From the NCBI GenBank assembly GCA_041486365.1, contig JBGPLH010000104.1, forward strand, positions 1-9,548: a stretch of 9,548 nt of DNA, read 5' to 3'. Shown in pieces: positions 1,180 through 4,056 of this stretch; position 1 is the first letter of the stretch; each line of letters starts with the position of its first letter. A program made the position numbers and the translations under genes. Source of the DNA: JBGPLH01 sp041486365 [NCBI: Thermodesulfobacteriota bacterium]. GTDB lineage: Bacteria; JAUYMQ01. The notes below the pieces were generated by a model that did not search any database, had not been told where the DNA came from, and saw only the letters and a list, made by a program, of their open reading frames with translations.

Positions 1180-1269
1180 TGGCGGAGAGAGAGGGATTCG
1201 AACCCTCGGTAGAGTTTCCCCTACGCACGCTTAGCAAGCGTGTGCCTTCAGCCGCTCGGCCATCTCTCC
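1180..1269 (-). tRNA. tRNA-Ser(GCU)
   Basis: A 90-nt class II tRNA with a 7-bp acceptor stem (GGAGAGA/TCTCTCC), discriminator G and encoded CCA at 1180-1182. The anticodon stem CACGC/GCGTG frames the loop TTGCTAA, giving anticodon GCT, which reads AGC and AGU. The long variable arm (GTAGGG/CTCTAC, one G-U pair, GAAA loop) is the serine identity element recognised by the SerRS coiled-coil arm. T loop TTCGAAT. It is the last of five tRNA genes before the SRP RNA. Confidence 0.97.
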
Positions 1270-1340
1270 TTGAAATCGTTGGCTCAAAGAACCGGCGTCG
1301 GCCCATGTGGCGGGCGCCCTTTCATATCGGATCTTGTCGG

Positions 1341-1359
1341 CCCGCGTCATCGACGCGGG
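1341..1359 (-). other. Perfect 8-bp hairpin just 3' of tRNA-Ser(CGA)
   Basis: CCCGCGTC and GACGCGGG are perfectly complementary around a 3-base loop, 12 bases past the CCA end of tRNA-Ser(CGA). No T-run follows, so it is either a weak terminator, a processing stem or chance pairing in GC-rich sequence. Confidence 0.35.
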
Positions 1360-1371
1360 ACCTCCGGCAAC

Positions 1372-1462
1372 TGGCGGAGAGAGAGGGATTCGAACCCCCG
1401 GTACGGTTACCCGTACACCTGATTTCGAGTCAGGCGCCTTCAACCAGCTCGGCCATCTCTCC
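1372..1462 (-). tRNA. tRNA-Ser(CGA)
   Basis: A 91-nt class II tRNA with the same acceptor and T-arm sequence as the other three serine tRNAs here and an encoded CCA (1372-1374). The anticodon stem CCTGA/TCAGG frames the loop CTCGAAA, giving anticodon CGA, which reads UCG. The variable arm is a perfect 6-bp stem (GTACGG/CCGTAC) with a GTAA loop. Its 5' end lies only 8 bases past the stop codon of the small CDS at 1471-1956, so the two are probably on one primary transcript. Confidence 0.97.
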
Positions 1463-1470
1463 GGCAAAGA

Positions 1471-1956
1471 TCAGACGAGAGGGCGCTTCGGGGGCACGCT
1501 CCGCCGCGCGCTTTTCAGCGCCGTCGGGGGCGGCACGTCGGGCACCGCCAGGCACGCGGCCTTGTGCGCAATCACGGTGGACGCCACGCGCGCGTCGTCC
1601 TCGCCGCTCACGGGAATCTCGGCCAGGAACTTGATCTTCCCCGCCGTCGCCACCATGCGCTTCACCGCGGGCGGCAACGTCTTGTCCCGCCGGAGCGCGC
1701 TCATGAGCGCCTCGCCCCGGATCATCCGGACGATCAGGTGATTGCCGAGGGCGTGCACCTGGCACACCGTCCGGTTCCCCATCTGCAGGATCGCCACCGG
1801 CGTGCGCCCGAGCGGGGAGATCATCCCCGCCCAGTGCGTGCCGTGGACCCGGGTGGCGCCGCGGAGAGAATCGAAACACCGCCGGGCCTTGAGCGACCAA
1901 TACTCCATCACATCGTCGAGGGAGACTTCCTTGAGCGCTTTCGCAGCTTCATCCAT
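1471..1956 (-). CDS. Unknown 161-aa protein encoded inside the tRNA cluster (weak DUF3788-like pattern)
   Basis: I cannot assign a function. The start is taken at the ATG at 1956 because GAGGGG lies about 10 bases upstream; an in-frame start at 2013 would only add an Arg-rich stretch with no visible conservation. The protein begins MDEAAKALKEVSLDDVMEYW. A central block has an RTVCQV strand (62-67), IVRMIRGEALMSAL (75-88), LPPAVKRM (94-101) and a late HK (131-132). The order 'RT(I/V), hydrophobic strand, GE-A---AL, LP--VK, K at the end' recalls DUF3788 proteins, from memory only. It has no signal peptide or membrane segment and no deaminase HAE or PCxxC motif, so it is not TadA. The C-terminus is Pro/Arg-rich. 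It sits between tRNA-Arg(GCG) and tRNA-Ser(CGA), same strand. Coding status is likely given its regular composition and good start. Confidence 0.72.
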   Translation of the reverse strand: MDEAAKALKEVSLDDVMEYWSLKARRCFDSLRGATRVHGTHWAGMISPLGRTPVAILQMGNRTVCQVHALGNHLIVRMIRGEALMSALRRDKTLPPAVKRMVATAGKIKFLAEIPVSGEDDARVASTVIAHKAACLAVPDVPPPTALKSARRSVPPKRPLV

Positions 1957-2100
1957 GAATGACTCACCCCTCCCGGCCGCCGGCCGTTCCGCTTCCGCCC
2001 GACGACGCGTCATCGAGGGCCGAGCCTCGTGGTTCGCGGCGTGTCGTGGGCGAAGGAGAGCGGGTGTGAGTCCCTCTGGCGGACGAGTTAAACTTCGAGA

Positions 2101-2177
2101 TGGTGCGCCCAGCAGGATTCGAACCTGCGACCTCTGCCTCCGCAGGGCAACGCTCTATCCATCTGAGCTATGGGCGC
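2101..2177 (-). tRNA. tRNA-Arg(GCG)
   Basis: A 77-nt class I tRNA with acceptor stem GCGCCCA/TGGGCGC, discriminator A and encoded CCA (2101-2103). D arm GCTC/GAGC. The anticodon stem TTGCC/GGCAG (one U-G pair at its outer end) frames the loop CTGCGGA, giving anticodon GCG. T stem GCAGG/CCTGC with loop TTCGAAT. The body is very close to bacterial tRNA-Arg. Most bacteria read CGU, CGC and CGA with an ACG anticodon whose A34 is converted to inosine by TadA; a genomic GCG would read CGC and CGU without editing and would not read CGA. The anticodon was read on both strands from 2132-2152. Confidence 0.95.
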
Positions 2178-2265
2178 GGCATTCGGGAATACGAACAAGG
2201 CCGGCGCCTGGTTCGACGGGCCTCGCCCCCCGCGAGATCCCTACCAGCGCCGGTCACCGGTCAAA

Positions 2266-2355
2266 TGGCGGAGAGAGAGGGATTCGAACCCCCGGTACGT
2301 TTTACCGTACACACGATTTCCAGTCGTGCACCTTCAGCCTCTCGGTCATCTCTCC
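2266..2355 (-). tRNA. tRNA-Ser(GGA)
   Basis: A 90-nt class II tRNA with acceptor GGAGAGA/TCTCTCC, discriminator G and encoded CCA (2266-2268). The anticodon stem CACGA/TCGTG frames the loop CTGGAAA, giving anticodon GGA, which reads UCC and UCU. The variable arm is GTACG/CGTAC with a GTAAAA loop. It lies 28 bases after tRNA-Ser(UGA), presumably on one precursor. Confidence 0.97.
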
Positions 2356-2383
2356 GCGAAGCCGATCGTGGCCATATAAGGAA

Positions 2384-2469
2384 TGGCGGAGAGAGAGGGA
2401 TTCGAACCCCCGAGGCTTTCGCCTAGCGGTTTTCAAGACCGCCGCCTTCGACCGCTCGGCCATCTCTCC
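2384..2469 (-). tRNA. tRNA-Ser(UGA)
   Basis: An 86-nt class II tRNA with the shared serine acceptor and T arm and encoded CCA (2384-2386). The anticodon stem GCGGT/ACCGC frames the loop CTTGAAA, giving anticodon TGA, which reads UCA and by wobble UCG. The variable arm AGGC/GCCT is shorter than in the other three and is capped by GAAA. It is the first tRNA after serS and the nearest to the promoter at 2561-2589. Confidence 0.97.
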
Positions 2470-2560
2470 GCTCGGCGGACCGGGAGGCCTCGCGAGAAAG
2501 CGCGACCGGGAAACCCGCCTAAGCCTGAAGGGCTGCCGCCCCGCTCTCGCCGGAAGGTTT

Positions 2561-2589
2561 TTTTTAGCATTCCTGCCATCTTGGGTCAA
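2561..2589 (-). promoter_or_regulatory. Sigma70-like promoter of the tRNA/SRP/dnaX cluster
   Basis: On the minus strand TTGACC (2584-2589) is followed after exactly 17 bp by TAAAAA (2561-2566), four of six matches to the -10 consensus, within an 8-base A tract that stands out in this GC-rich sequence. The predicted start near 2553 leaves a leader of about 80 nt before tRNA-Ser(UGA). It lies downstream of the serS stop, so the tRNAs can be made independently of serS. Confidence 0.6.
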
Positions 2590-2613
2590 GCGGAGGGACG
2601 CGGATGGAATGCG

Positions 2614-4056
2614 TCAGGTGCGATCGGGTCGCAGCACCTCGACGCCGACAGCAGGGAGGAGCGCCTTCGGCACGCGCAGGGAGCCGTCCGGCTCCTGGTT
2701 GTTCTCGATGATCGCCGCGAGCGTCCTCCCGACGGCGAGCCCCGATCCGTTCAACGTGTGCAGGAAGCGCGGCTTGGCCTTCTCGTCGGCCCGGTAGCGG
2801 ATCGAAGCACGGCGGGCCTGGAAGTCCTCGAAGTTCGAGCAGGAGGAAACCTCCCGGTAGACCTGCTGGGCTGGAAACCAGGCTTCCAGATCGTAGGTCT
2901 TCGCCGCCGCAAATCCAAGGTCCCCCGTGCACAGGGTCATCACCCGGTAGGGCAGCTCCAGCACCTGGAGCACCTTCTCCGCGTGCGCCGTGAGAAGCTC
3001 GAGCGCCTCGTAGCTCTTCTCCGGCTCCGTGAACCTGACCAGCTCCACCTTGTTGAACTGATGCACCCGCAGGAGCCCGCGCGTGTCCTTCCCCGCCGCC
3101 CCCGCCTCCTTCCGGAAGCAGGCCGAATAGGCGACATAGGAGACCGGCAGCCGCGACGCCGGGAAGATCTCGTCCCGGTGCATGTTCGTGACGGGCACCT
3201 CCGCGGTCGGGATCAGGTGCAGATCCAGGCCCTCGAGCTTGAACTGATCGTCCCGGAACTTGGGGAACTGCCCCGTCCCGAACATGCTCTGCTCGTTCAC
3301 GATGAACGGTGGGAAGATTTCCGTGTAGCCGTGCTCTCGCACGTGCAGATCGAGCATGAGGTTGATCAGCGCGCGCTCGAGCCGCGCCCCCATCCCCACG
3401 TTCGCCACGAACCGGGCGCCGGAGATCTTCGCCGCGCGCTCGAAGTCGACGAGCCCCAGCCGCTCCGCGATCTCCCAGTGGGGCTTCGGCTCGAAATCGA
3501 GCTTCGGAGGCTCGCCGAACCGGCGCGACTCGACGTTCCCGGACGCGTCGGGCCCGACGGGGACGCTCGGGTGCGGGAGGTTCGGGATCCACAGGAGCCG
3601 CTCGGCGGCCCGCGCCTCGAGCTCCTTGAGTCCGGACTCGGCCTCCTTGAGGTGCGAGGAGAATTCCTTGAGGCCCGCCGGCAGGCTCGTCCGGATGTAA
3701 GCGCGCACGTCGGAGGCGAGCGCCGCCTCCAGCCCGCGGATGAGTTCGCGAAGGGCGGCGTGCGCGGCCTGCAGCGCTGGCTGCCCACCTGGCAGGGCTC
3801 CGTCCCGGTCCGCGCTGCGCTTGCCGGCGTCGTCCAGGATCTCCGGGAGCGAGGGGAGCATCTTCTCGCATTCCCGGGGGGACAGGAGGTTCGAGAGCAC
3901 CTTGCGCTGGTTCTGCAGGTCCTCGATGTGGCGCACGAGGGCGCGCCGCTCGATCTCCAGCGAGTACACGTCCTGGAGGGCCAGCACCGCGCCGCGCGAG
4001 GACATCCGCTCCTTCACGGTCTGGAAATCGTCGCGAATGAGCCTGGGATCGAGCAT
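2614..4056 (-). CDS. serS: Seryl-tRNA synthetase with an enlarged N-terminal arm
   Basis: Cytoplasmic class II synthetase that charges tRNA-Ser (and tRNA-Sec) with serine. 480 aa from the ATG at 4056, against about 430 in most bacteria. [18 protein letters not shown] opens a typical N-terminal arm; [12 protein letters not shown] (157-168) marks the entry to the catalytic domain. Motif 1 lies around 216-250, the serine-binding TAE is at 284-286, motif 2 includes FRKEAG and [11 protein letters not shown] (314-334), and motif 3 is [13 protein letters not shown] (437-449). The catalytic residues look intact. The extra length lies in the arm, roughly residues 60-130, including a Pro/Gly-rich stretch near 84-95. 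IPNLP falls at about residue 112 in E. coli, so the arm is some 45 residues longer. The arm grips the long variable arm of tRNA-Ser, and all four tRNA-Ser genes lie directly downstream. The Shine-Dalgarno is weak. Confidence 0.98.

Follow-up and report, generated by a model that had tools for sequence, protein, structure and literature searches.

A serS–tRNA-Ser–dnaX neighborhood with tRNA-Arg(GCG) and an open reading frame at the places of tRNA-Arg(ACG) and tadA

The 9,548-nucleotide stretch of contig JBGPLH010000104.1 analyzed here (hereafter the window) carries the seryl-tRNA synthetase gene serS with four serine transfer RNA (tRNA) genes downstream, which raises the question of whether such a cluster is peculiar to this genome or part of a broader gene order, and what has become of that order here. 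As judged from the comparison of sequenced loci, serS followed by four tRNA-Ser genes is an old arrangement found widely among bacteria. The window is probably a diverged copy of this translation-gene neighborhood, in which tRNA-Arg(ACG) was replaced in place by tRNA-Arg(GCG), tadA has gone, and an unrelated open reading frame (ORF), P0003, stands in its slot. In the consulted parts of two papers, TadA is described as deaminating A34 of tRNA-Arg(ACG), the sole tRNA substrate of the enzyme in most bacteria (PMC3711424, PMC7289440).

The serS–tRNA-Ser neighborhood

The interval from serS to dnaX contains the following features:

2614..4056, minus strand: serS, seryl-tRNA synthetase (TIGR00414, 510 bits; Pfam)
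2384..2469, minus strand: tRNA-Ser(UGA) (ARAGORN, Rfam)
2266..2355, minus strand: tRNA-Ser(GGA) (ARAGORN, Rfam)
2101..2177, minus strand: tRNA-Arg(GCG), at the place of tRNA-Arg(ACG) (ARAGORN, Rfam)
1471..2013, minus strand: ORF P0003, 180 amino acids, in the tadA slot of other genomes (translation may start later, at 1956)
1372..1462, minus strand: tRNA-Ser(CGA) (ARAGORN, Rfam)
1180..1269, minus strand: tRNA-Ser(GCU) (ARAGORN, Rfam)
1012..1110, minus strand: small signal recognition particle RNA (SRP RNA, ffs; RF00169, 77.4 bits)
1..915, minus strand: dnaX, first 305 codons, continuing past the window edge (profile matches)

The tRNAs were called by ARAGORN, with Rfam in agreement. The intergenic gaps from serS to dnaX measure, in order, 144, 28, 88, 87, 8, 102, 69 and 96 nucleotides (nt), the first of them separating the serS stop codon from the first tRNA-Ser. 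The original prediction had placed tRNA-Ser genes with the anticodons UGA, GGA, CGA and GCU on one strand downstream of serS, and both programs recover them there within a span of 1.29 kb; together with the serS match, these calls bear out a full serine decoding set beside its own synthetase. The tRNA-Arg(GCG), ORF P0003, the SRP RNA and the start of dnaX belong to the same minus-strand gene run and had been absent from that description, among them the gene that stands out most at this locus, the tRNA-Arg(GCG).

The distribution of the arrangement was assessed in two samples. The first comprised 80 serS loci, 64 of them with at least 5 kb downstream; a tRNA-Ser lay within 6 kb of serS in 42 of the 64 (with the UGA anticodon in 41 of these 42), and three of the four serine isoacceptors were found in 3/64. 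The second covered the sequence downstream of serS, to a maximum of 8 kb, in 100 genomes (40 Desulfobacterota, 20 Nitrospirota and 40 Myxococcota), with loci hand-chosen from search listings in favor of long contigs and phylum labels being those of the search centers. After 11 loci with less than 5 kb downstream had been set aside, all four serine anticodons were detected on the serS strand within 6 kb in 29 of the 89 counted loci (Desulfobacterota 2/32, Nitrospirota 4/18, Myxococcota 23/39), counts that are not independent because many Myxococcota rows look alike. With the short loci added, the full set follows serS in 32 loci outside the window, which represent 31 distinct genomes. The arrangement had been thought unusual, a view that these 31 genomes refute: the loci of other genomes reveal a neighborhood conserved in many Myxococcota and in some Nitrospirota and Desulfobacterota.

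The genes usually run serS–Ser(UGA)–Ser(GCU)–Arg(ACG)–tadA–Ser(CGA)–Ser(GGA)–SRP RNA–dnaX, and the SRP RNA was present in all nine scanned loci of the full-set kind. The window follows this plan in having Ser(UGA) after serS on the same strand, four tRNA-Ser genes between serS and dnaX, and the SRP RNA with dnaX at the far end; it has neither Arg(ACG) between the serine pairs nor tadA between the tRNA-Arg and the next tRNA-Ser. Set beside the Myxococcota loci L171–L187 and the Nitrospirota loci L164–L170, it shares serS, Ser(UGA), a central arginine tRNA, two serine tRNAs, the SRP RNA and dnaX, and it differs in the GCG anticodon of the arginine tRNA, in P0003 standing for tadA, and in the exchanged positions of the GGA and GCU genes, a swap from the usual order that also occurs in L117. 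The best serS identity in the Myxococcota, Desulfobacterota and Nitrospirota samples was no higher than 64% over the conserved part for long matches, and up to 69% for short fragments. Among the titles and abstract openings covered by a literature search, no description of a serS–tRNA-Ser–tadA–dnaX gene order was found.

To assess the serine set genome-wide, a tRNA-Ser covariance model was run on 13 full-set genomes, with the best 150 candidates per genome scored. Exactly four matches of at least 89 bits were obtained in each of the 13 genomes, all of them within the cluster; the next-best matches, at 67–74 bits in 12 of the 13, were tRNA-Tyr, this assignment extending down to 67 bits. By this measure, these groups commonly have a complete tRNA-Ser set next to serS and lack any further strong tRNA-Ser match.

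The four serine tRNA genes of the window had also been reported to share 26 nt, starting at 1180, 1372, 2266 and 2384. This identity is exact and comprises the encoded CCA, the 3' strand of the acceptor and most of the T arm; we likewise agree that recent tandem amplification does not account for the set. The mean pairwise likeness of the T-arm and acceptor region over 23 nt is 98% in the window versus 76–88% in the 30 other full-set loci measured, L165 and L169 having fallen outside the pattern. Concerted evolution and constraint by seryl-tRNA synthetase (SerRS) had been offered as causes. Because the other full-set loci diverge, SerRS constraint alone does not force such likeness, while the likeness fits exchange between the tRNA genes in this lineage, which is plausible.

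A separate duplication within the neighborhood was seen in L068 (Natroniella sulfidigena), where the Ser(UGA)–Ser(GCU) pair occurs twice after serS (5863–7521).

The tadA slot

In genomes with tRNA-Arg(ACG) between the serine pairs, the slot behind it is uniformly filled. In 36/36 loci, corresponding to 35 distinct genomes (L105 and L191 being one), the space from Arg(ACG) to the following Ser(CGA) or Ser(GGA) contains a tadA gene, with profile scores of 191–269 bits. These scores are partly circular for 14 of the 36 slots, which were among the 15 from which the tadA profile was built; the remaining 22 lay outside the profile, although L105 belongs to the same genome as L191. The gap from Arg(ACG) to the tRNA-Ser is usually about 500 nt and reaches 4.2 kb in L117. 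The slots that follow tRNA-Arg(GCG) score 0.3 bits in the window, -3.0 in L211 and -1.7 in L212, and in six frames of the whole window no tadA match was obtained at E<=100, control sequences alone being listed.

P0003 was considered as a decayed or divergent tadA, which was ruled out by the missing tadA profile match. No deaminase motif was found in the ORF, and a Pfam search gave no match at E<=10; the weak matches obtained were to one PHROG (E 0.18) and to PDB entries (E 0.26–0.51). No relatives were confirmed in viral contigs, and a single-sequence fold prediction gave no usable model (mean predicted local distance difference test score, pLDDT, 38.8). At the three codon positions, P0003 has a guanine–cytosine (GC) content of 0.68/0.52/0.88, similar to the 0.70/0.43/0.91 of serS.

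A strict tRNA-Arg(GCG) pattern was then mapped in other genomes and was detected in 3 of 395 Desulfobacterota (G258, G220 and G454) and in none of 195 Myxococcota. Further GCG-like matches in G111, G134 and G348 are not tRNAs, as ARAGORN called none in the respective loci L246–L248. The genes of G258 and G220 belong to the neighborhood studied here. At L211, Arg(GCG) is followed after 7 nt by Ser(CGA) and then by Ser(GGA), the SRP RNA and dnaX; at L212, from G220, it is followed by an apparent truncated Ser(CGA), Ser(GGA) and the SRP RNA. The profile search found no tadA in either slot. When 30 genomes were searched whole, an Arg(ACG) pattern was present in 28, and each of these gave a TadA match of at least 121 bits. 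G258 and G220 gave GCG and CCG patterns only, and the profile search found no TadA in their assemblies; the best matches, at about 49 bits, are proteins that we read as RibD-like and dCMP-deaminase-like. The truncated tRNA-Ser(CGA) of G220 (L212, 1568–1624) could be a broken gene or an assembly fault.

In the third genome, G454, the Arg(GCG) gene lies next to tRNA-Val(UAC) at the end of a contig (L213, 1385–1539) and has a CCG-like anticodon arm, TAGCC/GGCTA. It may represent an intermediate state or be of foreign origin.

Origin of tRNA-Arg(GCG) and reading of CGN codons

Outside the anticodon arm, the tRNA-Arg(GCG) of the window reaches 98% identity with an Arg(ACG) gene, with median identities of 84% to 55 ACG genes and 82% to 18 CCG genes, values that do not separate the two kinds. 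The anticodon arm, counted without position 34, has a median of 8 of 16 positions in common with ACG genes (range 5–9, n=55) and 11.5 of 16 with CCG genes (range 8–13, n=16, E. coli left out). Full-length comparison of the gene gives 91% identity with an E. coli tRNA-Arg(CCG) and no more than 86% with any of the 55 ACG genes. We tentatively read it as a remodelling in which the anticodon arm became CCG-type. In the Desulfobacterota GCG genes the arm is different, ACGGA/TCCGT with G37; it recurs in ACG genes that have A37, and the G220 Arg(CCG) shares it except at position 34. Derivation of the Desulfobacterota gene from ACG by two changes was considered and dropped, since the G220 Arg(CCG) arm differs at position 34 alone; the arm is compatible with descent from either CCG or ACG. 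The sequence of an Arg(CCG) called in L035 suggests that this call is spurious.

The closest described parallel is found in Mollicutes. In the sections consulted, Arg(GCG) is described as almost missing from bacteria and tadA loss as an exception of some Mollicutes (PMC7289440, PMC10454642), and in the Pneumoniae group Arg(ACG) is reported as replaced by Arg(GCG) after loss of tadA (PMC3711424). The window resembles these TadA-less Mollicutes in having Arg(GCG) for Arg(ACG) and in the absence of tadA, which in our case concerns the window. It may differ in two respects from what the consulted part of PMC3711424 describes. The Mollicutes GCG tRNA is believed to derive from ACG by an A34-to-G34 change, whereas in the window the body of the tRNA is like some ACG genes and the anticodon arm is more like that of CCG genes. 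In addition, an arginine tRNA with U34 is present in those Mollicutes, and ARAGORN found none (UCG) within the window. The same source also mentions a small number of other bacteria in which CGN is read by an A34 and U34 pair; deviations from the usual scheme have thus been recorded outside Mollicutes. A second point of comparison is B. subtilis, where scr–dnaX–yaaK–recR is described downstream of yaaJ (tadA), which gives the same tadA, SRP RNA and dnaX neighbors; according to the part of PMC10454642 consulted, yaaJ can be deleted at the cost of slower growth and more frameshifting at CGA, so that TadA loss is survivable. Unlike the window locus, B. subtilis retains tadA and Arg(ACG).

These observations can be assembled into a proposed course of events. 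The ancestral neighborhood would have contained serS, four tRNA-Ser genes, one tRNA-Arg, tadA, the SRP RNA and dnaX. The tRNA-Arg normally edited by TadA, from ACG to inosine-CG, would have been swapped in place for a GCG tRNA, and tadA would have departed from the slot now held by the unrelated P0003. By the wobble rules, G34 reads CGC and CGU, so inosine is not needed for these two codons. Summed over six ORFs of the window, CGN codons comprise 95 CGC, 71 CGG, 10 CGA and 9 CGT, and on these counts GCG and CCG tRNAs would together cover about 95%. CGG would be read by an Arg(CCG) and the rarer CGA by another arginine tRNA encoded elsewhere, perhaps UCG. The serine part would work as in other bacteria, with one synthetase beside the complete set of its substrate tRNAs. 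The genes present and their order, the GCG anticodon, the lack of tadA in the window and the association of ACG with tadA in other genomes are direct observations; from them we infer that tadA and Arg(ACG) were lost from the whole genome, and the block is presumably co-transcribed.

A wider proposal seems to us about evenly balanced between right and wrong. It holds that a GC-rich bacterium, maybe outside Mollicutes, gave up wobble inosine by remodelling ACG to GCG with a CCG-type arm, tadA being lost with the tRNA, and that a Desulfobacterota lineage did likewise with a different arm. On this view the tRNA disappears together with the gene for its editing enzyme, and the two cases may or may not be independent of each other. 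With the tRNA and its editing enzyme side by side, the arginine anticodon and the content of the slot give a direct view of the loss of inosine decoding. The route out of A34/I34 decoding, by one in-place change or by remodelling from another arginine tRNA, is therefore testable across genomes. The shared serine set, for its part, makes synthetase–tRNA clustering an old feature here rather than a local curiosity.

Competing explanations and flanking genes

Several points weigh against replacement and loss, in addition to the partial circularity of the tadA scores. The search of this genome covered the window, and both tadA and an Arg(ACG) could sit elsewhere. No tRNA-Ser follows serS within 6 kb in 39 of the 89 loci of the second sample, so linkage is loose in many genomes, and in L117 tadA lies 3.6 kb from the tRNA-Arg; because of both, the absence of tadA from the slot is by itself weak evidence. 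Of the supporting genomes, G258 is incomplete (no serS match), as is G220, and they amount to at most one event because they look closely related. Since G454 retains both Arg(ACG) and tadA despite its Arg(GCG), the presence of a GCG gene does not by itself mean that tadA has been lost. On such grounds the GCG tRNA could be an extra or exchanged arginine gene, with Arg(ACG) and tadA kept elsewhere and the local order alone changed. G454, with GCG beside tRNA-Val as well as Arg(ACG) and TadA, would be a precedent, and tadA is apart from serS in many genomes; the best TadA match of G005, for example, lies on a different contig from serS. We nevertheless regard this as rather unlikely, given that the window GCG gene sits at the exact Arg(ACG) place between the serine pairs and that no TadA was found in the assemblies of two other such genomes.

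Selection of an unusual cluster for joint dosing of the synthetase with all serine tRNAs, the benefit suggested by the original prediction, is an unlikely explanation too. The single strand, the gaps of 8–144 nt and an order kept in distant groups speak for it. Against this, the arrangement is shared by the 31 other full-set genomes, serS stands without a nearby tRNA-Ser in the 39 loci just mentioned, and the block is not serine-specific because it also holds a tRNA-Arg, tadA or an ORF, the SRP RNA and dnaX. Nor do the signals of the block indicate a single transcript: no promoter-like site was found in 900–4400 (0.2 expected), and of three terminator-like sites there, versus 1.9 expected, one is a weak minus-strand site within P0003. 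That P0003 took over the role of tadA, acting on the tRNA in another way, is very improbable. The ORF fills the slot, shares the codon-position GC pattern of its neighbors and ends 8 nt before Ser(CGA); the searches for a deaminase motif, a tadA profile match and a Pfam domain described above argue otherwise, and with G34 there is nothing to deaminate. Replacement of Arg(ACG) by Arg(GCG) with departure of tadA is the explanation that we prefer.

Upstream of serS, a TSP3-repeat protein gene (4164–6631, minus strand) is split into two overlapping frames near 5165–5189; the split may stem from a frameshift, from gene decay or from a sequencing error. Beyond it, on the opposite strand and 2.8 kb from the serS start, lies selB, encoding the selenocysteine elongation factor (6876–8855, plus strand). 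The tRNA-Sec is also charged by SerRS; ARAGORN found none in the window. A gene for a protein that matches the Pfam lycopene cyclase domain (8855–9547, plus strand) starts at the selB stop codon.

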